In this document: positions 30,482 to 50,207 of the stretch, piece by piece | Position numbering within the stretch: position 1 is the first letter of the stretch | Layout: each line of letters opens with the position of its first letter | IMG/VR virus record: IMGVR_UViG_3300048591_000348 | Location: 1 to 64,000 of that record | Length of the DNA stretch: 64,000 nucleotides | Direction: 5' to 3' (one strand) | Source: a virus | Notes under the pieces: generated by a model | Databases searched by the model: none | The model's input: the letters and a program-made list of their open reading frames with translations, nothing else | Told to the model about the DNA's origin: nothing | Made by a program: the position numbers and the translations under genes

Positions 30482-31689
30482 TATAGTAGCTCCATCTGGC
30501 GCATCTCAGGGGTTGCCTCTGGCGCGGGCTCGTAATTCCAGCTCAGCTCGGAGAGCGCGGTACGCTGCCGCTGCAGCCAGCGGGACCACGCCATTGCCGG
30601 TGGCTCGCAGCCGGTCGGCTCGAGCTGCAGCGATCCAGGCGTCGGGATCGTCCAACACCGCGGCCAGCCCATCAGCCACTCGACGAACTCGGGGGAGAGC
30701 CGGAGCGAGGAGGGGCTCGTTATCGATGATTTTGGCCCATCGCTCGCGCTCTCCGGGTCCGGGCGGATAGAGGGGCAGTCGAAAGCCTCCGCCTGGCCCT
30801 CTATCGTCAACCGCTTGGCTTTCGTTCCCGGATCGCGGGTATATCCGCCGCGAACGGTTCGTGGCGCCTTCCAGAGGTGCTCGACGAAGTTCGGCAGTTG
30901 TTGACCGCGCTCCGAACCCGCGTTTCTCCGGTCCTGACTGTCCTGGCTGTTCGGCGCCCGCCAATCCCTCGATGCCGGTGTCGGCCAATCTCTTTTCGCG
31001 GTCGCTTCCAAAGCCCATTCCGCATCCGCAACCTTCGCCGCAATCGTCAACGGCATCCCTGCACCATTGCCGTTGATGCCCATCGCCTTCAGCGCGACCT
31101 GGCGCGCCCTGAAGGTTTCCGGCGACTCGTCGTCGTTCGTCAGTGCCGCCGACGGCGTGGGCCAAGATAAAGATCCGCTCGCGCTCGTGGCTCGCGCCCG
31201 TTTCTGCCGCGCTCTGTAATCGCGCCGCAATCTCGAAACCAAGGCGCGATAGCTCTCTGTGGACGACGTCGAAGCCGAGGCTGAGATGTCCGCCGACGTT
31301 CTCGAGGAATACCCACTGCGGCCGGACCTGGACGATGATCCGCCGGACGTGCGGCCAGAGGTGGCGCTCGTCGCGCGCGCCAAGCCGCTTGCCTGCGGTC
31401 GAGAACGGCTGGCACGGGAAGCCCGCAGTGAGGATATCCACGCATCCACGCCAGCGTCGGCCATCGAAGGTTTTGATGTCGTCCCAGATAGGAGCTTGAC
31501 CCAGGGCCTGATCCGCCATCCTGGCCACGAGAGTGGCCGCAGCGAAGGCTTCCCGCTCGACGTAACACACAGTGCGATAGCGAGGCTCGGCGATGTGCAG
31601 CCCGAGGTCGAGACCTCCGACGCCCGAGCATAGGGAGAGCCCAAGGAGGTCTCCGGCTTGAGATGCGGAGGAATGTGGAGCCACGCCAT
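30481..31689 (-). other. Overlapping open frame within the cytosine methyltransferase gene
   Basis: A 402-codon frame, offset from the methyltransferase. Its second half has protein-like stretches (DWPTPASRDW, FVEWLMGWPRCWT) similar to proteins often annotated beside dcm genes. The first 190 codons are Ser-rich and look like an out-of-frame reading. WPTPAS is exactly the shifted reading of the methyltransferase residues LADTG, and EWLMGWP that of RVADGLA. Probably a shadow; a real overlapping gene is not excluded. Confidence 0.25.
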
Positions 31690-31699
31690 CGACCGTCAC
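30506..31699 (-). CDS. DNA cytosine-5 methyltransferase
   Basis: 397 residues from a GTG (31699) that overlaps the upstream stop by four bases and has a run of eight G just upstream. All key C5 motifs are visible: I LSLCSGVGGLDLGL, IV AGFPCQPFSTAGKR with catalytic Cys, VI FLENV, VIII-like ERERIFILAHA, and X RLRATGNGVVPLAAA. It methylates cytosine in double-stranded DNA; the recognition sequence is not predictable. Likely protects phage DNA against host restriction. Most of it overlaps another open frame on the same strand (30481-31689). Confidence 0.92.
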   Translation of the reverse strand: MTVDGVAPHSSASQAGDLLGLSLCSGVGGLDLGLHIAEPRYRTVCYVEREAFAAATLVARMADQALGQAPIWDDIKTFDGRRWRGCVDILTAGFPCQPFSTAGKRLGARDERHLWPHVRRIIVQVRPQWVFLENVGGHLSLGFDVVHRELSRLGFEIAARLQSAAETGASHERERIFILAHAVGGTDERRRVAGNLQGAPGRAEGDGHQRQWCRDAVDDCGEGCGCGMGFGSDREKRLADTGIEGLAGAEQPGQSGPEKRGFGARSTTAELRRAPLEGATNRSRRIYPRSGNESQAVDDRGPGGGFRLPLYPPGPGERERWAKIIDNEPLLAPALPRVRRVADGLAAVLDDPDAWIAAARADRLRATGNGVVPLAAAAAYRALRAELELRARARGNP

Positions 31700-31956
31700 C
31701 CCGCCCCCCCCTGCTCCGAAAGAGCTGCTTCTAATCCGATTAGAACCTCTTCCAGCGCCTGCCGCGAAACGCCCACTTCGCATCCGTCCATATCCAACTG
31801 GCGCTGGTTATGCTTGAGATTGTCGATTGCGCCTTTGTAAATACCATCGATGTAAGCGAGGCGAGCCTCCAGGCGTTCGATGGCCATGCCGCGGCGATCC
31901 ATCTCAGCCACGATCTCGTCGATGCTGGATTGGCGGGAAATGTTGATAATGCTCAT
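31696..31956 (-). CDS. Small coiled-coil protein
   Basis: 86 residues from MSIINISRQSSIDEIVAEM, chosen because CAGGAG lies upstream. Helical throughout (MAIERLEARLAYIDGIYKGAIDNL, QALEEVLIGLEAALSEQ). Coupled by overlap to the methyltransferase, so they may be co-expressed. Function unknown. Confidence 0.55.
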   Translation of the reverse strand: MSIINISRQSSIDEIVAEMDRRGMAIERLEARLAYIDGIYKGAIDNLKHNQRQLDMDGCEVGVSRQALEEVLIGLEAALSEQGGAG

Positions 31957-35884: not shown

Positions 35885-37030
35885 TCACACCCCCCTTAGC
35901 TTTGCCAGCTTGTTTCTGTTCCGTACTTCGACGATACGCTCTTCAGCCCGAAGCCGCGGTCGATTGCCGGCAGCAACCAAACTGCAAATCGTCTCTCTGT
36001 AGATCTGTTGTGCCCGCTGCCATGACCGATTGATCTCGTTGCCGATAGCCAGCCACGTGCGAGGCGGCGACAGCATCCTGGCGCGCAGCACAACCATTTC
36101 CCGGTCTCGGGGCGCCACTTCCGAGAACCATCCCATGACCACATCAAAATCCGCCCAGTCATGCGGCGTCGGGACGAGTGGCGGCACCCAGTCATCCCCC
36201 CGTGACTGCTCGCCGTAGACATCAACCCATGTCAGCTTGAGGTCGGCGAGAACCGCCGCATTGCTCCGCTGCCTTCGGATGTCCGTCGGTAGGCTGCGCT
36301 CAAGAATGAGGTGCCGCATGATGCGCGCCTCGCCGTGCTCGCGGGATACGGCACCCATCGGCTCGTAAACAACCCGCGTCACGTCGCGCCACCATTGGAC
36401 GATGGCACCCCGTGCCCCTCCCGTTCCATGCGTGGGCACCCCGTGCCCAACCCCGTGTTTATGCGTGGGCACCCCGTGCCCAACAGTGGGCACCCCGTGC
36501 CCAACGGTGGGCACCCCGTGCCCAACGGTGGGCACCCCGTGCCCAACGGTGGGCACCCCGTGCCCAACGGTGGGCACCCCGTGCCCAACGGTGGGCACCC
36601 CGTGCCCAACGGTGGGCACCCCGTGCCCCGTGTGGGCACTTGGTGTCATGTCATCCCACGCGTCGTCCCATGCCCCGTCATCACGCGAATAGTCGGCACG
36701 GGCTGCCTCACGCCATTCTTCCATCTCGGCGGCCGCGTTGGCCGCATCGAACGACATGCCGCCGATGCTTCCAATTCTCGGCCGGACTTCGACGCGGATG
36801 GGCTCGGGCTCGATGCCATTCTGCCATCGCCACTGCGTCGCATCGCAAGGCTGCCACGCCTCGACCCTGGCGCGCAGCGGCTTCAATTCGCGGCCGCGGA
36901 TCTCATGCCAATGCCGGCGCCCCTTCTTGTCGACGTCGCCGACGGCATCGACGACGTATCCCGGCCAGCGCACGCGAACGCGCACACGGCCGGCAGGAAG
37001 ATCCTCGATCCTGTACCAATGATGGTTCAC
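35885..37030 (-). CDS. Protein with GHGVPTV tandem repeats
   Basis: 381 residues from a GTG at 37030 (TGAGG upstream). The N-terminal domain (NHHWYRIEDLPAGRVRVRVRWP) is followed by an acidic linker. Nine GHGVP units (eight spaced exactly 7 residues) fall at about 135-200. The C-terminal region is helical and ends with a probable helix-turn-helix (RTWLAIGNEINRSWQRAQQIYRETI). The C-terminal part resembles DNA-binding regulators. The repeats are encoded by a 21-bp hairpin minisatellite. Confidence 0.55.
   Translation of the reverse strand: MNHHWYRIEDLPAGRVRVRVRWPGYVVDAVGDVDKKGRRHWHEIRGRELKPLRARVEAWQPCDATQWRWQNGIEPEPIRVEVRPRIGSIGGMSFDAANAAAEMEEWREAARADYSRDDGAWDDAWDDMTPSAHTGHGVPTVGHGVPTVGHGVPTVGHGVPTVGHGVPTVGHGVPTVGHGVPTVGHGVPTHKHGVGHGVPTHGTGGARGAIVQWWRDVTRVVYEPMGAVSREHGEARIMRHLILERSLPTDIRRQRSNAAVLADLKLTWVDVYGEQSRGDDWVPPLVPTPHDWADFDVVMGWFSEVAPRDREMVVLRARMLSPPRTWLAIGNEINRSWQRAQQIYRETICSLVAAGNRPRLRAEERIVEVRNRNKLAKLRGV
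36432..36628 (-). repeat. 21-bp tandem hairpin array
   Basis: GTGGGCACCCCGTGCCC starts at 36432 and then at 36465, 36486, 36507, 36528, 36549, 36570, 36591 and 36612: eight in strict 21-bp register plus one 33 bp away. Each unit holds the perfect palindrome GGGCAC-CCC-GTGCCC. The array is in frame and codes for GHGVPTV. A lone near copy (14 of 15 bases) lies at 41295-41308. Confidence 0.95.
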
Positions 37031-37038
37031 AGCGAGCC

Positions 37039-37392
37039 TCAACTGCTTGCGCAGATTAGAGGACGCTTTCCGGCAGGACGACGAGGCATGCCTTTCCTGC
37101 GCCAGACCGCCCGTACTGCCGCGGCAGAGATCCCGAGTTCGGTCGCGATAACCGCCGACGACTTCTCCGGCGTCGTGGCCGCGATGATGCGAGCATACCC
37201 GACCACTTCTCGCGATATTTTCTTCGGTGCTGGGGCTCCGCCACGACCAAGCGCCGCATCCTGCTTCTTGCGCGCCCGCCATGATTTCTTGCTGCGGTCG
37301 GAACGCTTCCTCGGCGACATGCGGAAGCGTCTTTTTGCAGGTGTGGCATGCTCCTCGACATGAAGGTCGGGGCTTCCAAGTGGTTTAGGCAT
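37039..37392 (-). CDS. HTH-type DNA-binding protein
   Basis: 117 residues from MPKPLGSPDLHVEEHATPA, which has AGGA five bases upstream. Very basic N-terminal half (Arg/Lys/Ser), then a helix-turn-helix: TPEKSSAVIATELGISAAAVRAVWRRKGMP. Upstream lies a repeat-rich control region (37393-37772). Confidence 0.6.
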   Translation of the reverse strand: MPKPLGSPDLHVEEHATPAKRRFRMSPRKRSDRSKKSWRARKKQDAALGRGGAPAPKKISREVVGYARIIAATTPEKSSAVIATELGISAAAVRAVWRRKGMPRRPAGKRPLICASS

Positions 37393-38851: not shown

Positions 38852-38991
38852 CCCTTTTTCCCTCGCCTTACGACGCGCACGCGTTTTGAATTGCGTTGCC
38901 TGATCTTCTCGGAAACGGACTGCTTCCGCTTGCCGCGAACAATCTTTCCGTCTTTGCCTATGCAAAACGATTTGCCGAGGCGAGCGCTCAT
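38848..38991 (-). CDS. Very small basic protein
   Basis: 47 residues beginning MSARLGKSFCIGKDGKIVRG, with about 35% Lys/Arg (KRKQSVSEKIRQRNSKRVRV). Its ATG overlaps the MT-A70 gene stop (ATGA) and its stop overlaps the next GTG. This end-to-end coupling supports translation. Probably nucleic-acid binding. Confidence 0.5.
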   Translation of the reverse strand: MSARLGKSFCIGKDGKIVRGKRKQSVSEKIRQRNSKRVRVVRRGKKG

Positions 38992-39608
38992 GCTGAAGCC
39001 TCATCGAACATACCTGCCTGATCCCCGAACGACTCCCATGTGGGCCGTGTTTCGCGCGAGAACACATCGGCAGCCCGTCCGAACGGAATGAGTTGGCGTG
39101 CCATCTCATAGGCTTCATCGGGCTTCCGAGAGTGCTCTCTTGCCCTCGCCAGGATTGCTGATCGCACGGATTTCGACTGCGTTCGGATCCGGCCAATCTT
39201 TCCGATCAGAAACAGCTCGTGGGCCCCTCGCAGCACATAGCCAGTACCGAAGCCGACTTTCCCATTCTTCGTCGTCTTCACCCATGCGCCACTCGTGACG
39301 AATTTGAAGCCCCAATCCTCCAGTATTCTGATCTGCTGCTGGATCCCCGGTGCGGTGCACCACATCCACAAAAGCATGCCGTCCTTGTGGGCGAGATCTT
39401 TCACCGGCAATGCCGCGATCTCGTCCATCGTCATGGTTCGATACTTGGCTTGCGGTGACTTCCCACATCCTTTCTCAGAGAATGTTCGAAAGCGCCATGC
39501 GGGATCGATCATCGCGAGCGAATATGCACCAGGCTCAAGGTCACCGAACGGCCAGTTCGGAAAGCGACAGTCTTCACTGAAGAGATCTTCCTGGCGCAGA
39601 TCGATCAC
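38988..39608 (-). CDS. MT-A70-type DNA adenine methyltransferase
   Basis: 206 residues. AMIDPAWRFRTFSEKGCG is the catalytic motif (D-P-A-W in place of DPPW). LLWMWCTAPGIQQQIRILEDWGFKFVT and a RGAHELFLIG strand follow, as in phage MT-A70 enzymes. The usual second Pro is Ala here. It probably makes N6-methyladenine in phage DNA. Coupled by four bases to the 355-residue methyltransferase. Confidence 0.85.
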   Translation of the reverse strand: MIDLRQEDLFSEDCRFPNWPFGDLEPGAYSLAMIDPAWRFRTFSEKGCGKSPQAKYRTMTMDEIAALPVKDLAHKDGMLLWMWCTAPGIQQQIRILEDWGFKFVTSGAWVKTTKNGKVGFGTGYVLRGAHELFLIGKIGRIRTQSKSVRSAILARAREHSRKPDEAYEMARQLIPFGRAADVFSRETRPTWESFGDQAGMFDEASA

Positions 39609-40672
39609 TCTGCATGCTCCATCACGTCCAGCAGACCACCGCGATCCCTGCCAAGCCGTCGCTCGGCCATAGCTGCGTATTCAGGGTTCAGCTCGATAAG
39701 GATCGCATTCCTCTGCAGCCGATCAGCTACAAGGGCCGTCGTTCCTGACCCGCCAAAGGGATCGAGAACCATCCCTCCCTTCGGACAACCGGCCTTGATA
39801 CAGATTTCTGGTAGCTCCGGTGGAAACGTTGCGAAGTGGGCTTCAGCAAATGGGGCTGTGGCAATCGTCCAAACTGAGCGCCGGTTGCGCCCATTTGCCA
39901 TTTGCTCTGCCCTTCCCATGGAATCCCATCGCTCGTTGAACCCTTGATGTTTCCTCTCGTGGCCTCGCCGGCGCTCGGGCAATTTTATGGTCTCATTCTT
40001 ACCGACGCGCTTGTTGCCTATTTGGGTGCGTGGCCCAGGTGTGCCACCGACATAGGATCCGCCACGAAAACCCATGGCGTCTTCGTTGCCTGAGCGCATC
40101 TCACGGACAGCATCGGCGTCGTAGAAGTAGCGCTCCGACTTTGTCATCAGGAACACGTACTCGTGTGATTTCGTGGGTCGATCGCGAATGCTTTCCGGCA
40201 TTGGATTCGGCTTTGACCAGATGATGTCAGACCGCAACCACCAGCCGTCATCCTGAAGCGCGAACGCGAGACGCCATGGCAGGCCCATCAGGTCTTTCGG
40301 TTTCAAACCCGGTGTCCGCTTAAGACTTCCCGTGTTAATTCCCCTTGGCGCCGCGTAAACTTGTCTACCACTGAGCTTCGATGCTGGACCGGGCGTTTCT
40401 CCGCGCGATTGCGCGCCCCATGATCCTGCGTAGGCATCGCCGTAATTGAGCCAGAGTGTGCCATCCGCGCGCAGAACACGGCGGATCTCGCCAAACACCG
40501 CAACAAGCCGATCGATATGCTCAAGCAGAGTTGGTTCACTGCCAATCTGGCCTTCAACGCCATAATCGCGCAGACCCCAGTACGGCGGGCTCGTCACGAC
40601 GCAATGCACCGACTCGCTGGGCAACTGGCGCAGACCGTCCATAACGTCGGCTTGAATAATTCTTACGGTCAT
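39605..40672 (-). CDS. DNA methyltransferase (N4-cytosine or N6-adenine, SPPY type)
   Basis: 355 residues. VVTSPPYWGLRDYGV is motif IV, at the N-terminus; GGMVLDPFGGSGTTALVADRLQRNAILIELNP near the end is the SAM motif I. This order is that of the beta class, the same class as CcrM, though there is no evidence for GANTC specificity. Central part LKPKDLMGLPWRLAFALQDDGWW with SKPNPMPES is typical of phage enzymes. Together with the neighbouring MT-A70 enzyme it forms a modification pair. Confidence 0.9.
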   Translation of the reverse strand: MTVRIIQADVMDGLRQLPSESVHCVVTSPPYWGLRDYGVEGQIGSEPTLLEHIDRLVAVFGEIRRVLRADGTLWLNYGDAYAGSWGAQSRGETPGPASKLSGRQVYAAPRGINTGSLKRTPGLKPKDLMGLPWRLAFALQDDGWWLRSDIIWSKPNPMPESIRDRPTKSHEYVFLMTKSERYFYDADAVREMRSGNEDAMGFRGGSYVGGTPGPRTQIGNKRVGKNETIKLPERRRGHERKHQGFNERWDSMGRAEQMANGRNRRSVWTIATAPFAEAHFATFPPELPEICIKAGCPKGGMVLDPFGGSGTTALVADRLQRNAILIELNPEYAAMAERRLGRDRGGLLDVMEHAE

Positions 40673-42079: not shown

Positions 42080-43246
42080 TCAGAACTTAATCCTTACGCC
42101 AGCCATTCCAACGGATGCGTCCAGGCCGCCGCCGATGTCGTATGACCGATACGAAACGAACGCATCGAGAGCCGCAGCGTCGATGCTCTGCACGATGCCG
42201 AGCCCCCAGAAGTCAGAGTCGACGTTCGCCGTCTTCAACTGATGGTCCGCGTACTCGGCATAGACCGCCGTGTTTCCCATGCCGAAGAAGTTGCGAGACA
42301 GGCCGCCACGGAGATGCCACATCTGAATATCGCCCCAGAGAGGGTGATCATCCTGGTGGCCGCCGGCGACATTGAGGAACACGCCAGTTGCGACATGCAG
42401 CATCGAGATGGACCCGGTCAGAGTCTTCATGTCGCTCATGCCGAACCCGTCGAGATTCTCGACGCGGTAGCCAAGCCCAGCAGCGAGCCGCACGCCACCG
42501 AACTCGCCAGCGTAGCGCAACGCAACGTCATAGAGATCGTCCCCTGACGCTGTCTGACCGCCGCCCCAAGACGCCGACCCCTTGAAGCCGGCAAGCTCTG
42601 GCGTGTCGTACCGAAGGACTTCCGCTCGTCCGCCGTCGAAGCCAACGGGATTGACGATTCCGAGCCCAATTCCGGGGAGGCCGGAATAGGTCCACATCGG
42701 CTCGGCCGAGAGCGGCAGGGACGCGATGTTGGTGTTAGAGAGATCAATCTCAGCGATCCCGTCCGTCGCCGTCGATGTCCGGCCAATGCTGACGCGGCCG
42801 ACGGAAGAATCCAACCACGCCACCGAGTGGCGTACGGTCATGTCGTTAACCATGCTGCCGGCGCCGAGCAGGCCGCCCGCAGTTTCGTCGATGCCCAGCT
42901 CGATCATGAACCCGGCCTTCATTGTCGGACTGATCGTCGCCTCCCCTGAGAAGCGAAGCTTGGTGCCGCTGTTGGGGTTGTCGATGATGCGCCCCTTGCC
43001 GTCACCGGGCAAACCGCTTAGATCGTTCCACAAAATTGCTTTGCTGACCTCGCCGGAGATCGTCAGCCTGACCTTGCGATTGCCCTTCCTGGCGACGGTC
43101 GCCTCGAGCTCTGCCACGCGCTCTTCGAGGTCCGCGCAGCAATCCCCCCCGAGGTCGGCGGCCTTCGCCGCGGGCATGTAGGCGTATCCGCCAATCGCGG
43201 CGGCGGCGGCGATACCACCGCCGATCAGCCAATTCTTCATAGCCAT
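42080..43246 (-). CDS. Outer-membrane porin (phage-borne)
   Basis: 388 residues. Signal peptide MAMKNWLIGGGIAAAAAIGG with cleavage after AKA (about residue 29). CADLEERVAELEATV follows, a coiled coil like those of alphaproteobacterial porins. Then come many beta strands (KVRLTISGEVSKAIL, KLRFSGEATISP) ending in Phe (AGVRIKF), the outer-membrane assembly signal. It has its own promoter with operator. A lysogenic-conversion role, such as changing surface receptors, is likely by analogy with the phage porin Lc of lambdoid phages. Confidence 0.85.
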   Translation of the reverse strand: MAMKNWLIGGGIAAAAAIGGYAYMPAAKAADLGGDCCADLEERVAELEATVARKGNRKVRLTISGEVSKAILWNDLSGLPGDGKGRIIDNPNSGTKLRFSGEATISPTMKAGFMIELGIDETAGGLLGAGSMVNDMTVRHSVAWLDSSVGRVSIGRTSTATDGIAEIDLSNTNIASLPLSAEPMWTYSGLPGIGLGIVNPVGFDGGRAEVLRYDTPELAGFKGSASWGGGQTASGDDLYDVALRYAGEFGGVRLAAGLGYRVENLDGFGMSDMKTLTGSISMLHVATGVFLNVAGGHQDDHPLWGDIQMWHLRGGLSRNFFGMGNTAVYAEYADHQLKTANVDSDFWGLGIVQSIDAAALDAFVSYRSYDIGGGLDASVGMAGVRIKF

Positions 43247-43305
43247 GTTGGTTTGGTCCCTGATGGGCAGCATTACGCTTGCACGCGAACGCACCACTGG
43301 CCGCT

Positions 43306-44472: not shown

Positions 44473-45333
44473 CTAAGTCCCCGTTGCTTCGTGAATGGCA
44501 TGAATGGCCACGGCGGATTTCCACGCATCGAACACGTCGCTATCCCCGTTTGCGACCCACACATCGACCTCTCGCTTTCGCGTGGATAGCGGAGCCCGGT
44601 TTTGCGTTGTTTGCAGATGGTATCCGTCACGAGACTCCCAGGGGCGGCCATTGACGATGTAGCTCTGTCGCCATTTCTCGTCCCGAACGACGAGGGACGC
44701 GCCGTATTTCATGCCAGGCAGAATGAACCCAATGCGGACATCACTGATCAGGAGTGCCCCACAACTTCTGTCCCGCGCGACATAGACGTGCTGCCCCCAA
44801 AGCGCGGTCTCATTGCCTATGATCTCAGCGCCGGGGAACCTGCGCATCACCTCAGCACGAACAATGGCGATAGCCTTCGCCTTCATCCGCACCATGCGTT
44901 TGCGCTCAGCCGTCTCGCGATCGTGGCATGCCTTGTTGCAGAAGATTGAACCGGGATTCGGCTCATACGGATCGCAGATCGGCAGCGTCAGATCAGGCCC
45001 ATATTCCCGATCGAGCCCGTAATCTAGATAAGTATAGTGACCGGTATAAGGATCGCTCGTTCCAATAGCGCCATGGTCGATCTTGACGCCACAGCCATGA
45101 CACTCGACCCACCAGCCTTCATCGATGAGTTCAAGTCCGGGAACCGGGCCTGGTGCATGCTTGTCCCATCGCGCCCTTCGCATCGCTCTGATGCCGGCGA
45201 TGAACCGGTCTCCGTCACCGTGCTCATTGGCCCATAGGCGCTTCGCTTCGATCGACGATTTTGCGAAGATGATCTCGGAGTCTTCCGGATCGCCATTGCC
45301 GTCGACAAAGTAGCATCTCAACGAGGCTATCAT
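44473..45333 (-). CDS. Hypothetical zinc-binding protein
   Basis: 286 residues. Cys/His pairs CHGCGVKIDHG and FCNKACHDRETAERKR suggest a metal site in the middle third. The rest is beta-rich (YVARDRSCGALLISDVRIGF). Overlaps GcrA's stop by four bases. Function unknown; encoded between the GcrA- and DnaA-like genes. Confidence 0.55.
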   Translation of the reverse strand: MIASLRCYFVDGNGDPEDSEIIFAKSSIEAKRLWANEHGDGDRFIAGIRAMRRARWDKHAPGPVPGLELIDEGWWVECHGCGVKIDHGAIGTSDPYTGHYTYLDYGLDREYGPDLTLPICDPYEPNPGSIFCNKACHDRETAERKRMVRMKAKAIAIVRAEVMRRFPGAEIIGNETALWGQHVYVARDRSCGALLISDVRIGFILPGMKYGASLVVRDEKWRQSYIVNGRPWESRDGYHLQTTQNRAPLSTRKREVDVWVANGDSDVFDAWKSAVAIHAIHEATGT

Positions 45334-45950
45334 TCCGTTCGCTCCAATTCCCTCTCAGAAGGCCGCTGAGCGCCTTCCTCATCTTTGGCTACATCGGGTC
45401 GTAATTTTTCATTCTGCCCGTCCTGCGCAAACCTCGGGCGATCTACGGGCATTCCAGGGCGGTCCATCGGGGCGCGGGAGATTTTTGCGCAATCCTCGCA
45501 GTACGAGAGGCCAATAACCCGCGCCTCGCCGCAAAACCGAAACGTCTCCGTCCCCGGCATCCCGACCGGCCATCGGCAGTGGCGGTCTTCCAGCTGATCG
45601 AACGTGACCAGCTTCGCCGGATCGAAGTCCCTCCCGGAGCGATCGACATACGGCTCGACCGGGATCGGAGCGGACCGCGGCGCCGCCCGGTACGACGGCG
45701 AAGACGGCGAAGACGGCGACGGCGTGGCTGCCTGGCTGTAGCGCCTCGTCGGGATCGACGTCTTCGCCCGCCTTGGTACGCGCCCCTCGGAATTGATCCT
45801 CATCCGGTGCAGCCTGGAGATCACCGCGTTTCGCGTCAGCGCGATCCCGAATTTCAAGTTCGCGATGTTCGCGACCTGGCTGGCCGACTTGCCGGACTTC
45901 CATTCCGAGATCAGAAGTTCGACCAGGCCGGGGGTTTCCCAAACGGACAT
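45330..45950 (-). CDS. gcrA: GcrA-family cell cycle regulator
   Basis: 206 residues. The N-terminal domain WKSGKSASQVANI, then ALTRNAVISRLHRMRI, is the GcrA helix-turn-helix. A Pro/Ser-rich linker (about 75-115) leads to the C-terminal RNA polymerase-binding part HCRWPVGMPGTETFRFCGE with SYCEDCAK. In Caulobacter GcrA binds sigma70 RNA polymerase and activates promoters with methylated GANTC. A phage copy may redirect host transcription or read phage methylation marks. Slightly longer than host GcrA (about 170). Confidence 0.92.
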   Translation of the reverse strand: MSVWETPGLVELLISEWKSGKSASQVANIANLKFGIALTRNAVISRLHRMRINSEGRVPRRAKTSIPTRRYSQAATPSPSSPSSPSYRAAPRSAPIPVEPYVDRSGRDFDPAKLVTFDQLEDRHCRWPVGMPGTETFRFCGEARVIGLSYCEDCAKISRAPMDRPGMPVDRPRFAQDGQNEKLRPDVAKDEEGAQRPSERELERTE

Positions 45951-46723
45951 CAGCCGACCTCCCGCTTGGCTTCGGCGGCAAGGCGGTCCCGATCGCTCTG
46001 CCGTCCCTTGATGCGCCGATCGATCTCGTGGTCGACCCGCATCCCGGCGAGGAGATCTATTCGACCAGAAACATGATCCGCCAACACCTCGCGATGGACC
46101 GCGATCTTCTCGCCAATCTGAGCCATCGACCGGGCGAACGCCCAGCCTCCGCGCAGGCAGTGGGCATAGGCCCGATCAGCTTCCTGCGCCTGCACCCGGC
46201 AGTGATCGACCTCGGTCCGCGTGACCGTGGGCCACGCCAAGTCGCCGTCGATGGTCCGCTCGATCGTCTTGAGCGACGCCTTTGCCGTCTCGCTCGGCAT
46301 CCGCCCGTGCTCGACGATCCAGCCGTAGAGGGCGGTAACCCAACCCTCGGCGGCCGCCCGCCTCCCCATCGGGCCGCGGATCAGTTCCAGCGCCAGCCGC
46401 TTCCGGTGCCACGATCCCGGCTGTGTCGAGTTATCGCCGTCGAGCGGAAGCTCGCGGCGCTTGTCCTCAGCCGCGATGTCGTCGCAGATTTTCCGAATTG
46501 TCCCCGGCAGGGGGAACCTGCGGTCCGTCCCAGTCCATGTGTTGAGGATCTTGTCCGCAGCCCGCTTGACGACGTCGTCGCCGAACGGCCGGATCGTCTG
46601 CCCGATGGACGCGACCCAGGCTTCCTCCTTCGCCGCCCGGTTAGGGTCGCCCAGCGCGATCGGAACGTTGAAATGCACCCGCAGGGTCGTAATGAAATTC
46701 GCGATTGCGTCGATTGTCGCCAT
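45950..46723 (-). CDS. Putative replication accessory protein
   Basis: 257 residues starting MATIDAIANFITTLRVHFNV. RRFPLPGTIRKICDDIAAE is a pattern seen in phage proteins encoded after O-like initiators. The rest is helical with a Trp/Tyr-rich middle (GWVTALYGWIVEHGRMP). Helicase loader or primosome role is inferred from position only. Its ATG is preceded by a seven-G tract that also codes the end of the initiator. Confidence 0.5.
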   Translation of the reverse strand: MATIDAIANFITTLRVHFNVPIALGDPNRAAKEEAWVASIGQTIRPFGDDVVKRAADKILNTWTGTDRRFPLPGTIRKICDDIAAEDKRRELPLDGDNSTQPGSWHRKRLALELIRGPMGRRAAAEGWVTALYGWIVEHGRMPSETAKASLKTIERTIDGDLAWPTVTRTEVDHCRVQAQEADRAYAHCLRGGWAFARSMAQIGEKIAVHREVLADHVSGRIDLLAGMRVDHEIDRRIKGRQSDRDRLAAEAKREVG

Positions 46724-46726
46724 GGC

Positions 46727-47965
46727 TCACGCCCCCCCGCTCAGCTTCGCGGCAAGGATCCGCTTGGTGCGTTCGATTTCTTCCTCCGGCTTGCCGTTGA
46801 TGGCCGCCGCGCCCGCGCTGAGACGCGACGCGACCGACTGCCGATCCCGCGCTTCTCTGGCCGCCTGTGCCCGACGTTGGTTGACGTCGCCCATGATCGA
46901 CCGGGCGAGAAAGTTGGCGATCTTGGATGGCAGGACTTTTTCCGGGCGCTGCCCGTTCTCGATCTCAAGACCCCATTGCATTGCGTGCGCAACGCAGAAA
47001 TCGCGAACCTCGGTCGCCGTGAGCCCAGAGTTGATCGTCTGCATTCGGATGCCCGAGACGTAGATCGCAAACGCCGCATGTCGGATCGTCTCGCCGTTGG
47101 CATAGACGCCGTGCCCGATGTGGGCCTCCCCAGCGAGAGGGGGCGGGTAATTGGCAGGCGCTGGCCCGCCTTCGCTCGCGTCCGCGCTAGTATCAGTTCT
47201 CACAGTAGTTTCTTTACTAGTTACTGTGCCAACTGGGGATCTGACATCAGAAGTGACGTCACTTGGGGATGTGACGTCAGATGGAGATCTGACATCAGAA
47301 CCCAAATTTGTGTCTTCACTATCGTTCGGCCTACTAGATATAGTTTTGATGTCAGGCTGGCATCTGACGTCAGATCCCCATCTGACGTCAGATGGGTGCA
47401 TGACGTCAGATGGGTGGGTGATGTCAGATAGGTGCATGACATCAGGATGGTGGATGATGTCAGATGGAGAGGTGACATTAAGCACGCGATTTCTGCGCGC
47501 CTGCGCAATGGGATGAGGTCTCAGCGGAGTAGTGCGCTGGGACATTATCCACTGCGTGACGATATCCTGTAGCTCGGCTTGTCTTTGCTTTCGCAGGGCG
47601 TAATGCGCGAGCGCCCTCCCTCCCCCTTCCGGGGCGCGCCTCGCTACGACGAGGTACCCCAACGCAACAAGTTCGGAGAGCGTGTTCCTGATGCCTTGGT
47701 CCGTGTACCCCTGGTCCGGGTAGCCGTCTATGTTGTAGCGCCGGAGGGCGGCGGCGATGGTTTTGTGCCCAGGATAAGCGGTGCCGGTTGACGAGTTTAT
47801 GTGACCAATAACTTCGGCGAGAACACGCAAATGGCGCCGATCCAATCGCGGGTCACGCACCGCCTCCATGATTACCTCCTTCATTGTCAGGAGAAGGTTC
47901 TCTTTGCTCTCGTTCACAAAGTCGTCGAAGGTCGGCCCGCCATTGTGCCCAATCTGGTCGGTCAT
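46727..47965 (-). CDS. Lambda O-like replication initiator with internal origin
   Basis: 412 residues from ATG with GGAGGCGAGCT upstream. The N-terminal winged-helix domain (about 40-125): RHLRVLAEVIGHINSSTG, YPGHKTIAAALRRY, IRNTLSELVALGYLVVARR. Residues about 165-245 consist of SDV/SDI repeats (HPSDVMHPSDVRWGSDV), the protein reading of DNA iterons. The C-terminal part is helical. In lambda, O binds iterons inside its own gene; the layout here is the same. First replication gene of the early operon. Confidence 0.8.
   Translation of the reverse strand: MTDQIGHNGGPTFDDFVNESKENLLLTMKEVIMEAVRDPRLDRRHLRVLAEVIGHINSSTGTAYPGHKTIAAALRRYNIDGYPDQGYTDQGIRNTLSELVALGYLVVARRAPEGGGRALAHYALRKQRQAELQDIVTQWIMSQRTTPLRPHPIAQARRNRVLNVTSPSDIIHHPDVMHLSDITHPSDVMHPSDVRWGSDVRCQPDIKTISSRPNDSEDTNLGSDVRSPSDVTSPSDVTSDVRSPVGTVTSKETTVRTDTSADASEGGPAPANYPPPLAGEAHIGHGVYANGETIRHAAFAIYVSGIRMQTINSGLTATEVRDFCVAHAMQWGLEIENGQRPEKVLPSKIANFLARSIMGDVNQRRAQAAREARDRQSVASRLSAGAAAINGKPEEEIERTKRILAAKLSGGA
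47201..47555. other. Candidate replication origin: 18-bp iterons and DnaA box
   Basis: The core TGA(C/T)(G/A)TCA starts at 47347, 47365, 47383, 47401, 47419, 47437, 47455 and (one mismatch) 47473: eight units at exactly 18 bp. A second group starts at 47242, 47254, 47272 and 47290. Between the groups (47299-47346) and left of them (47190-47235) the DNA is AT-richer. TTATCCACT (47547-47555) differs from the DnaA box by one base. All inside the initiator gene, as in lambda. Confidence 0.82.
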
Positions 47966-48048: not shown

Positions 48049-48153
48049 ATCTGTCTCCTGCTTCTTCATGGGTGGGGAAGCTGGTCCCGCTGGGCGGCGG
48101 GCTACTGATCTCTGCTTAGAAAGGCCCCGGCTCGTCTCGCCGGGGCTTTTTTT
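48046..48153 (+). ncRNA. Candidate OOP-like antisense RNA
   Basis: On the plus strand, opposite to all genes here, TTGTTC (48017-48022), 17 bases, TAGATA (48040-48045) could start a transcript that ends at a strong terminator (48124-48153), about 100 bases. It lies just before the O-like gene, the place and orientation of lambda oop RNA. The promoter is weak. Confidence 0.4.
48124..48153 (+). terminator. Rho-independent terminator, plus strand
   Basis: GCCCCGGC-TCGTCTC-GCCGGGGC followed by TTTTTTT. On the minus strand the stem is followed only by CTTTCT. No plus-strand gene precedes it, which suggests an untranslated RNA. Confidence 0.85.
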
Positions 48154-48337: not shown

Positions 48338-49060
48338 TTACGCAACCTTGCGGCTCGGCAGCTCTGGCCATGGGATATCGTTCGCCTCGGTTTCCGCGTC
48401 GAGAACCGTCCACCGCCAGGATCGCTTGCGAGACGCCCCCTTTTTTCCGCGGTATCGTCGATCGCTGCGCGTCTTGGTAATGTCGTTTGAAAGCCTCTCG
48501 AGGGCTGGCCGGAAGACGCTAGGAGAGATCGGCCCCAGCTCTTCCGCCTCGAAAAATTCGCTACACAACTCGCCGAACTCCTCGTGGGAATAGGTGCCGC
48601 ACCGATCCGCCATCCTGACCCACTCGACAAAGCGCTCCGCCACCGCATCGACGTCGATCTTCGACCTGACTCGCTCGCCGTTCGACCGGGTCGACGACGA
48701 TGGTTTTGGCGACTGGCGTGGCGCAGGAACGGGCGCAACGGTTGTTTCGATTTCGGAGATCCGTTCATCTTCCAGCGCATCGGACTGCGACCAGCCGTTC
48801 AACTCGATCATGGACAGGCGTATCTCTGCCAGCCAGTCCGGATCGCTGATCGGCTCACTGATCCATGCCTCGAACGCTTCCATGCTCTTGTTTTCCGGGC
48901 GCAAGCCCGGGTTCTTGAGGCAGGCCCGTTGATATGACGTGCCGGCGCCAGACCGAAGCTGCGCGCAAGATGCTGCGGCGTTTTCAGTCGGCGCCGGCGC
49001 GCGCCCCCCCATAGAGCGCAGCCCAACGCGGCGGCCGAATAGCCGGTCCGCTAGGCCCAT
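48338..49060 (-). CDS. First gene of the early left operon, unknown
   Basis: 240 residues from ATG 49060 (AAAGGGACC upstream). Basic N-terminal third, Pro/Ser-rich linker (APRQSPKPSSSTRSNG, about 110-125), then a helical domain: DAVAERFVEWVRMADRCGTYSHEEFGELCSEFFE with SPSVFRPALERLSND. The last domain resembles phage proteins placed between repressor and replication genes. It occupies the position of cro/cII in lambda; possibly a regulator. Confidence 0.55.
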   Translation of the reverse strand: MGLADRLFGRRVGLRSMGGRAPAPTENAAASCAQLRSGAGTSYQRACLKNPGLRPENKSMEAFEAWISEPISDPDWLAEIRLSMIELNGWSQSDALEDERISEIETTVAPVPAPRQSPKPSSSTRSNGERVRSKIDVDAVAERFVEWVRMADRCGTYSHEEFGELCSEFFEAEELGPISPSVFRPALERLSNDITKTRSDRRYRGKKGASRKRSWRWTVLDAETEANDIPWPELPSRKVA

Positions 49061-49178
49061 ATCCACGGTCCCTTTTGATTTTCCTGACGCGCCTGGAAAT
49101 GGGGGCGCATGCAACTGCGCGCGCCCCAAGTCCAGGGAGGAAGCTCCGACTCCCGGCATTCGGAAGTCTCATCATCTT

Positions 49179-49269
49179 GTTGCCAAAATCGAAACGTGAT
49201 GTCAATGCAGATAGGCAGCGTTGTGTATTTGGCAAGCCTACGTGGCGCTCAAGGTACGAAAATCGAAAC
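49179..49269. promoter_or_regulatory. Immunity operators and early left promoter
   Basis: Two copies of the 17-bp operator: GTTGCCAAAATCGAAAC (49179-49195) and GGTACGAAAATCGAAAC (49253-49269). Between them a minus-strand promoter TTGCCA, 16 bases, TATCTG (plus 49230-49235, 49208-49213) and a further TTGACA (plus 49200-49205) drive the leftward operon. The repressor gene starts at 49334. This is a classical two-operator switch arrangement. Confidence 0.72.
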
Positions 49270-49333
49270 ATGCGCACCGCGCGCGTTGGTGCTAGACCGA
49301 GACAGTAAGCAGTAAAGCGTGGAGACGAGAACG

Positions 49334-49888
49334 ATGGACAAGCCGGATAGAGACGTGATCGCCCTGTGGATGGAGGATGCTCTGCGGAGAAAGCCGCATC
49401 TGTCGCAATCGGGGCTGGCAGACCGGCTTGGGAGTCATCGATCCAAAGTCACCAAGATGCTGAACGGCAGCCGGAAAGTGAGCGGTCTAGAGCTTCCGAT
49501 CATCGAGACTTACCTCGAGGAGGTCAGCCCTTTATCCGGGATAGATGTCGTGGGGATCATATCATCCGCGTGGTATGAGACCGGCACCGAACCGAGGGTC
49601 GCGGAGCGCATCCCGAGGTCGCATTACGCCAAGCCATTGCATCAATGCGCGTTTCTGGTGCAGTCGGACATGCCCATGATTAGGGCCGGCGATGGCGATA
49701 TCGCGATCGGCGTCGCCGTGAATGCCGACAATCAGCCGATCCGGGGCGATCTGGTTGTTTGTCGGCAAAGCAGGGGCGGGCTGCACAACCTGTCCGTTGG
49801 GCGATACGTGAGCCAGAAAGAGATAGAAGGCATTCGTGGGGCGGCCGACATCGTGGCCGTCCTCGTCGAGATCAGACGACGGCCTTGA
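49334..49888 (+). CDS. CI-type repressor 1
   Basis: 184 residues from ATG 49334 (GGAG nine bases upstream). N-terminal HTH: LSQSGLADRLGSHRSKVTKMLNGSRK. C-terminal domain with DMPMIRAGDGDIAIGVAV and IRGDLVVCRQSRGGLHNL resembles the S24/LexA fold. The catalytic Ser-Met and the Lys are not clear, so it may not self-cleave. It divergently faces the early left operon across two operators. Probably the main maintainer of lysogeny. Confidence 0.78.
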   Translation: MDKPDRDVIALWMEDALRRKPHLSQSGLADRLGSHRSKVTKMLNGSRKVSGLELPIIETYLEEVSPLSGIDVVGIISSAWYETGTEPRVAERIPRSHYAKPLHQCAFLVQSDMPMIRAGDGDIAIGVAVNADNQPIRGDLVVCRQSRGGLHNLSVGRYVSQKEIEGIRGAADIVAVLVEIRRRP

Positions 49889-50120
49889 CCGACCCAGAGC
49901 GGGGCGGTCGGCCCGGCCGCATCCGCGGCGACGGCCGATCGAGCACGTCCGTGGGCGTGACCCTTCCCCCGCTCAGCTCGTAGATTTTCGCGATCCTCTC
50001 CGGATTCGGAGGCATGGAGCCGTTGATCCAGCGGCGCACCGTGCTTTCGGTGACGCGCATCTGTTCCGCCAGCCAGGCCGGCGATGCTCCTATAGAGTCT
50101 AGCCATTCTCGAATGCGCAT
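49872..50120 (-). CDS. Cro-like HTH protein
   Basis: 82 residues from MRIREWLDSIGASPAWLAEQ. HTH ASPAWLAEQMRVTESTVRRWINGSMPP is XRE-type; the tail is basic and short. It converges on repressor 1 (3' ends overlap 17 bases) and diverges from repressor 2. Only seven bases separate a near-consensus -10 from its ATG. Likely the Cro partner of repressor 2. Confidence 0.72.
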   Translation of the reverse strand: MRIREWLDSIGASPAWLAEQMRVTESTVRRWINGSMPPNPERIAKIYELSGGRVTPTDVLDRPSPRMRPGRPPRSGSVKAVV

Positions 50121-50127
50121 GGCCCAA

Positions 50128-50207
50128 AATATACGTGCGACGCACACGCCAGTCAACAGAATTAACGTGACGCGCAGCTATACATTGATTGAACGATATA
50201 CGTTCAA
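50128..50207. promoter_or_regulatory. Cro-like gene promoter and second-type operator
   Basis: Minus strand: TTGACT (plus 50151-50156), 17 bases, TATATT (plus 50128-50133); the spacer carries GTGCG-T-CGCAC. Further right, TTGAACGATATACGTTCAA (50189-50207) is a perfect 19-bp palindrome of the second operator type. It also contains a leftward TTGAAC, 17 bases, TGTATA. Confidence 0.68.

Follow-up and report, generated by a model that had tools for sequence, protein, structure and literature searches.

A phage replication origin of the lambda type is predicted, with high probability, to lie inside the initiator gene at positions 46727-47965 of the window, by which we mean the whole 64-kb (64,000-nucleotide) stretch of viral DNA analyzed here. 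The window belongs to a 79,919-base IMG/VR virus record, which is called linear and is possibly a fragment. Its initiator gene lies in a neighborhood encoding a GcrA-family protein, a protein with DnaA domain IV, DNA methyltransferases and a porin, and the presence of GcrA presumably points to an alphaproteobacterial host. The features on which this reading is built are as follows.

46727-47965, - strand: replication initiator gene, 412 amino acids, O-like architecture (open reading frame, profile and homologue matches)
47520-47965, - strand: N-terminal DNA-binding domain, putatively recognizing the iterons (low-confidence model; HTH_36 in the homologue L064)
47347-47480, no strand: iteron block 1, seven exact TGAYRTCA sites and one degenerate site (TGACATTA, 47473), all steps 18 bp
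47298-47346, no strand: AT-rich tract 1, candidate unwinding element, directly 3' (gene sense) of block 1
47242-47297, no strand: iteron block 2, four exact TGAYRTCA sites, steps 12, 18 and 18 bp
47188-47227, no strand: AT-rich tract 2, immediately past block 2 on its 3' side, the 40-mer with the highest AT content in the gene
45950-46723, - strand: 257-amino-acid gene in the position of lambda P, putative helicase loader, directly downstream of the initiator
48338-49159, - strand: upstream 273-amino-acid gene (33% identity to L106:9446-10153, blastp E 1.7e-11)
49872-50156, - strand: gene for a small HTH protein, placed like lambda Cro and syntenic with L106 (blastp E 5.5e-7)

An array of palindromic iterons in the initiator gene

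The initiator gene contains 11 exact copies of the palindrome TGAYRTCA, starting at 47242, 47254, 47272, 47290, 47347, 47365, 47383, 47401, 47419, 47437 and 47455, and a degenerate twelfth copy starting at 47473. The steps from site to site are 12, 18, 18 and 57 bp, and 18 bp throughout thereafter. A preliminary description of this DNA had reported a 412-codon reading frame with SDV/SDI peptide repeats, eight sites in an 18-bp register and four more at 47242-47297. The reading frame is as described and all array coordinates were right; the spacing of the eight iterons also held, but the eighth copy is degenerate, so that the array consists of 11 exact sites plus one.

Overall, TGAYRTCA occurs 20 times in the 64-kb window, compared to 3.55 occurrences expected from dinucleotide shuffles (largest count, 8), and 11 of these 20 matches are held within about 220 bp. 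All 11 exact sites and the degenerate copy share one reading frame, in which the exact ones are read as T-GAY-RTC-A. The iterons have dyad symmetry, and the outer core is invariant among the exact units of block 1. No DNA relatives of the array were found in the phage collection. A lone extra TGATGTCA is present at 49197-49204, in the divergent intergenic region 49160-49318, and could be an operator or a chance occurrence.

The sites are constrained as DNA

The default reading of an 18-bp repeat within a gene is a repeated hexapeptide. The array could accordingly be an expanded coding minisatellite that specifies a flexible S-D-V/I linker and has no function as DNA, a reading that we consider unlikely. 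Such repeats are indeed common: in a scan of two large collections, three TGAYRTCA sites at 18-bp steps were found at 15 and 44 loci, in dozens of contigs, and nearly all of these were unrelated coding repeats of the hexapeptide type, so that the 18-bp TGAYRTCA pattern is not diagnostic by itself. However, the minisatellite reading does not account for the number of sites. In 2000 synonymous shuffles using the codons of the gene itself, TGAYRTCA occurred 2.34 times on average and at most 7 times, compared to the 11 sites observed; with the codon usage of the phage, the mean fell to 0.89 and the maximum to 5.

Neither does the D-V/I peptide explain the constraint on codon positions. The position following D-V/I is occupied by R, T, M, I or K, but the first base of its codon is always A, and the Ser or Pro codon preceding D ends in T in every exact site; among the genes neighboring the initiator, TCT, AGT and CCT are minority codons. 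Furthermore, when the seven exact block 1 units are compared in pairs, differences are seen in 0 of 126 comparisons at the six outer core positions and in 122 of 210 (58%) in the 10-bp spacers, a contrast that would not be expected from recent duplication alone. Given the excess over the shuffles and the invariant core between diverged spacers, the sites are therefore under selection as DNA, beyond the SDV/SDI peptide. Additionally, other initiators, including lambda O, harbor other palindromes at this place, often at non-codon spacings of 22-24 bp.

The initiator is linked to lambda O by a chain of profiles

The 412-amino-acid protein is composed of an N-terminal winged-helix domain, a linker encoded by the iterons and a C-terminal region. 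Its match to phrog_270 ("replication initiation protein") was weak (E 0.009, residues 32-141), and no match to PF04492 (Phage_rep_O) was obtained at E 0.1, compared to 5.7e-36 for lambda O. The homologue L065 matched phrog_345 ("replication initiation O-like") with an E value of 4.9e-15, as did lambda O with 5.2e-17, and the homologue L064 matched phrog_270 (E 2.9e-21) and exceeded the Pfam HTH_36 cut-off (31.8 bits). Since the only direct match is the weak one to phrog_270 and none was obtained to PF04492, we classify the gene, on profile evidence, as an O-like initiator by a chain of profiles and not as a PF04492 member. The earlier placement of the array inside a replication initiator gene is supported through this chain from L065 and phrog_345 to lambda O. 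A model of the N-terminal domain built from three sequences had the order helix-helix-helix-strand-strand with a poor mean pLDDT of 58; a fold search with it gave no significant match, and no sequence relative was found among solved structures.

Related initiators carry comparable arrays

With the whole protein as query, no relative turned up in the phages, viral_contigs and genome_contigs collections, nor did one in plasmids with the N-terminal domain as query. L065 (also L007; contig 3300033067_000430) was reached via the iteron pattern, and its N-terminal domain is 45% identical to that of the window protein. L064 (3300006805_003822) was reached via an alignment of the window and L065 proteins, independently of any iteron. 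Further scans added no relatives to these two, which are the only close homologues known.

Both carry comparable arrays within the gene. In L065, TGA[C/G]GTCA or TGACATCA is found at gene nucleotides 446, 464, 482 and 500 and at 560, 578, 596 and 617, that is, with the core of the window, almost exclusively 18-bp steps and two blocks; at the S or P positions of the window, L065 has V, R, S or other residues. At the corresponding place in its gene, L064 carries another palindrome, TTAC-N8-GTAA (TTACC-N6-GGTAA and variants), which is partly in 18-bp register, with three copies at this step. A long inverted repeat, CAGTATGTCTGACATTACC / GGTAATGTCAGACATACTG, seemingly encloses this array at about L064:6470-6550. 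The iteron is thus common to two related initiators, and the third, which is about equally similar, has another one. The protein alignment offers two candidate specificity determinants, namely, residue N94 of the window protein, where L064 has K, and an insertion that L064 lacks. No convincing alignment of the C-terminal halves was obtained among the three proteins: L065 ends in a DnaD-like loader region (phrog_10469), L064 in an end of the phrog_270 type. A DnaB is encoded by L064 itself and a primase-helicase by L065.

We then surveyed 25 initiator ORFs, namely, those of the window, L065, L064 and lambda O and 21 from alphaproteobacterial genomes recovered by their phrog_270 match. A palindrome array beating all 60 synonymous shuffles was found in 10 of the 25, a count that includes the window and L065, whose arrays were part of the reason for choosing them; the others are L064, lambda O and six of the 21 unselected ORFs. 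Lambda O represented the positive control, and its annotated iterons were recovered. None of 66 other ORFs beat all 60 shuffles; most of these came from the same loci, and they include some reading frames that are perhaps not genes. The survey suggests that palindrome arrays within the gene, followed by AT-rich tracts, recur in phage winged-helix initiators, a layout that could help to locate phage origins from sequence. The chromosome of Devosia rhodophyticola harbors an initiator-like gene (L039:161-1014, - strand; phrog_270 E 5e-13) with three 18-bp-spaced copies of TGACGTCA; its N-terminal frame stops just past the array and the remainder is in another frame, indicating a broken gene or a frameshift.

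AT-rich tracts follow the iteron blocks

The AT-richer DNA noted earlier beside the iterons is real in the case of both tracts. Tract 1 has an AT content of 61% as a whole and of about 62% over 47304-47346, its best 40-mer (62.5%) being at the 99.5th percentile of the 80-kb record, and tract 2 reaches 67.5%, at the 99.9th percentile. The two top AT 40-mers of the gene are thus located after block 1 and block 2. Similarly, the top AT 40-mers of L065 follow its two blocks, and L064 has a tract after its single block. In lambda gene O, the iterons end at nucleotide 433 and the most AT-rich 40-mer starts at nucleotide 435. With site patterns set by hand, the AT maximum was located between -15 and +40 nucleotides from a block end in eight of nine initiators scored (exception, L097), an outcome with a chance of 3-13% per initiator. 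However, AT-rich linkers are also present in some initiator ORFs with no detected array, so that this evidence is weaker than it appears, and the placement of the tracts is supporting but not decisive for an origin.

DnaA box and GC skew

The DnaA-like box TTATCCACT, which the preliminary description had put at 47547, is located at 47545-47553 and has one mismatch. Boxes with one mismatch occur 8 times in 64 kb, compared to 5.48 expected, and 19 of 100 shuffles reached 8, so that their frequency is at chance level. A small protein with DnaA domain IV (PF08299; 43978-44469, - strand) is indeed encoded downstream, in the same direction as the initiator, but the suggestion that it acts at the box is without basis given this chance-level frequency. 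We rejected a DnaA-dependent origin, the site having one single-mismatch box that is not significant. A GC-skew peak near 47.4 kb had been proposed as a check. The cumulative skew does dip to a local minimum close to 48 kb, but the direction of the genes probably changes at that point as well, and the minimum is therefore not independent evidence.

The neighboring genes

The 257-amino-acid protein encoded downstream of the initiator had no family match, including to the P family, and no relative in the phage or viral_contigs collections. A weak homologue (30% identity, E 2e-4) was found in L110, where it directly follows a primosomal/initiator-type gene with in-gene repeats. Its position and this weak homologue suggest that the protein may be a helicase loader. 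The 80-kb record yielded no DnaB-type helicase. The order small HTH protein, 273-amino-acid type, initiator and GcrA is common to the window and L106, which is the full L064 contig.

Proposed mechanism and comparison with known origins

In lambda, O dimers bind the iterons and the complex opens the adjoining AT-rich tract, while P binds DnaB and brings in the host helicase (PMC7466680, PMC5043065). We infer a similar course for the window. The N-terminal winged-helix domain would bind each TGAYRTCA palindrome, probably as a dimer, and once the 12 sites are filled, the resulting nucleoprotein complex would melt the AT-rich tract just 3' of each block. Helicase recruitment would follow, through the C-terminal region and the 257-amino-acid protein; we propose that this helicase is the host DnaB because none was found in the phage record. 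The D-V/I recurring every six residues would be a tolerated peptide linker, the array keeping the reading frame because 18 bp corresponds to six codons.

The claim of a lambda-like origin in the initiator gene is supported as far as the order of domain, iterons and AT-rich tract is concerned, which is that of lambda O; its DnaA part is not. As in lambda (NC_001416), inverted-repeat iterons follow the DNA-binding domain in mid-gene, an AT-rich 40-mer comes at once after them, and directly downstream lies a second gene, P in lambda and a putative replication gene in the window. Unlike the four 18-bp iterons of lambda, which are 20-24 bp apart, change frame and have the sequence ATCCCTCAAAACGAGGGA, the window has 12 sites whose 8-bp cores mostly recur every 18 bp in a single frame and form two blocks, both with an AT-rich tract, and its initiator does not match PF04492. 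The Shiga-toxin phages P27 and 933W also have more iterons (six) within the gene, lengthening the O protein, but these are extra lambda-type iterons beside one AT-rich region (PMC7466680), and the window differs from them in iteron sequence, spacing and two-block layout. The phrog_270/phrog_345 initiators of the alphaproteobacterial prophages L076, L078, L079 and L094 are likewise of the winged-helix type with a palindrome array in the gene and an AT-rich tract just 3', but their palindromes differ and their spacings are often 22-23 bp, not a multiple of three. In iteron plasmids, too, repeats bound by the initiator are arrayed beside an AT-rich region; these are mostly direct repeats, bound by monomers, helix-phased and accompanied by DnaA sites (PMC5043065), whereas the window has palindromes within the gene, no significant DnaA box and an 18-bp step that is not a helical multiple. 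A lambda-type origin in the window would extend the lambda arrangement to an uncultivated group of GcrA-encoding phages outside the Pfam family of lambda O, and supplies concrete predictions as to site sequence, site number and melting tracts.

As an alternative to an origin, the sites might serve autoregulation, partition or copy control by binding the initiator or some other regulator. Their palindromic nature would suit a dimeric regulator, and the extra site at 49197 lies in an intergenic region between divergent genes. However, the array is located mid-gene in an initiator, next to AT-rich tracts, and related initiators show the same anatomy, which makes an operator array very unlikely in our judgment.

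The idea of a single origin array needs revision, since two units of iterons and AT-rich tract are present instead of one and a further candidate lies at 36404-36628, in a 465-amino-acid ORF (35885-37282, - strand). This second in-gene array has a 21-bp unit with the palindrome GGGCAC-GGG-GTGCCC, translated as GHGVPTV repeats, and no DNA relatives in the phage collection. Although it comprises about nine near-identical copies, we give hardly any credence to an origin there or elsewhere, as the ORF has no significant family match (only a weak one to DUF6362, E 0.044), the unit is GC-rich and the 99% identity of the copies fits recent expansion as well as function.

Returning to an origin in the initiator gene, a more elaborate form of it is conceivable, though we hold it tentatively and rather doubt it. 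The two units of iterons and AT-rich tract, also seen in L065, could form a tandem origin, in which the 18-bp step would be codon-locked for the gain and loss of sites with the protein kept intact, and the iteron sequence and the C-terminal loader module could have been swapped among relatives at the junction. The two-unit layout may be new; our literature search was short and we claim no priority.

Additional features of the region

A search for sigma-70-like promoters between 47900 and 49400 found none. Between the initiator and the upstream gene, a GC-rich inverted repeat and the T7 run behind it on the + strand (48120-48150) may act as a terminator. GcrA homologues are encoded near the initiator in all three phages (45330-45950 on the - strand of the window, L064:7822-8436 and L065:41-484). 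The record also contains a porin gene (42080-43297, - strand; PF13609, E 1.7e-17) and three DNA methyltransferase genes on the - strand (30506-31783, 38988-39608 and 39605-40672; PF00145, PF05063 MT-A70 and PF01555).
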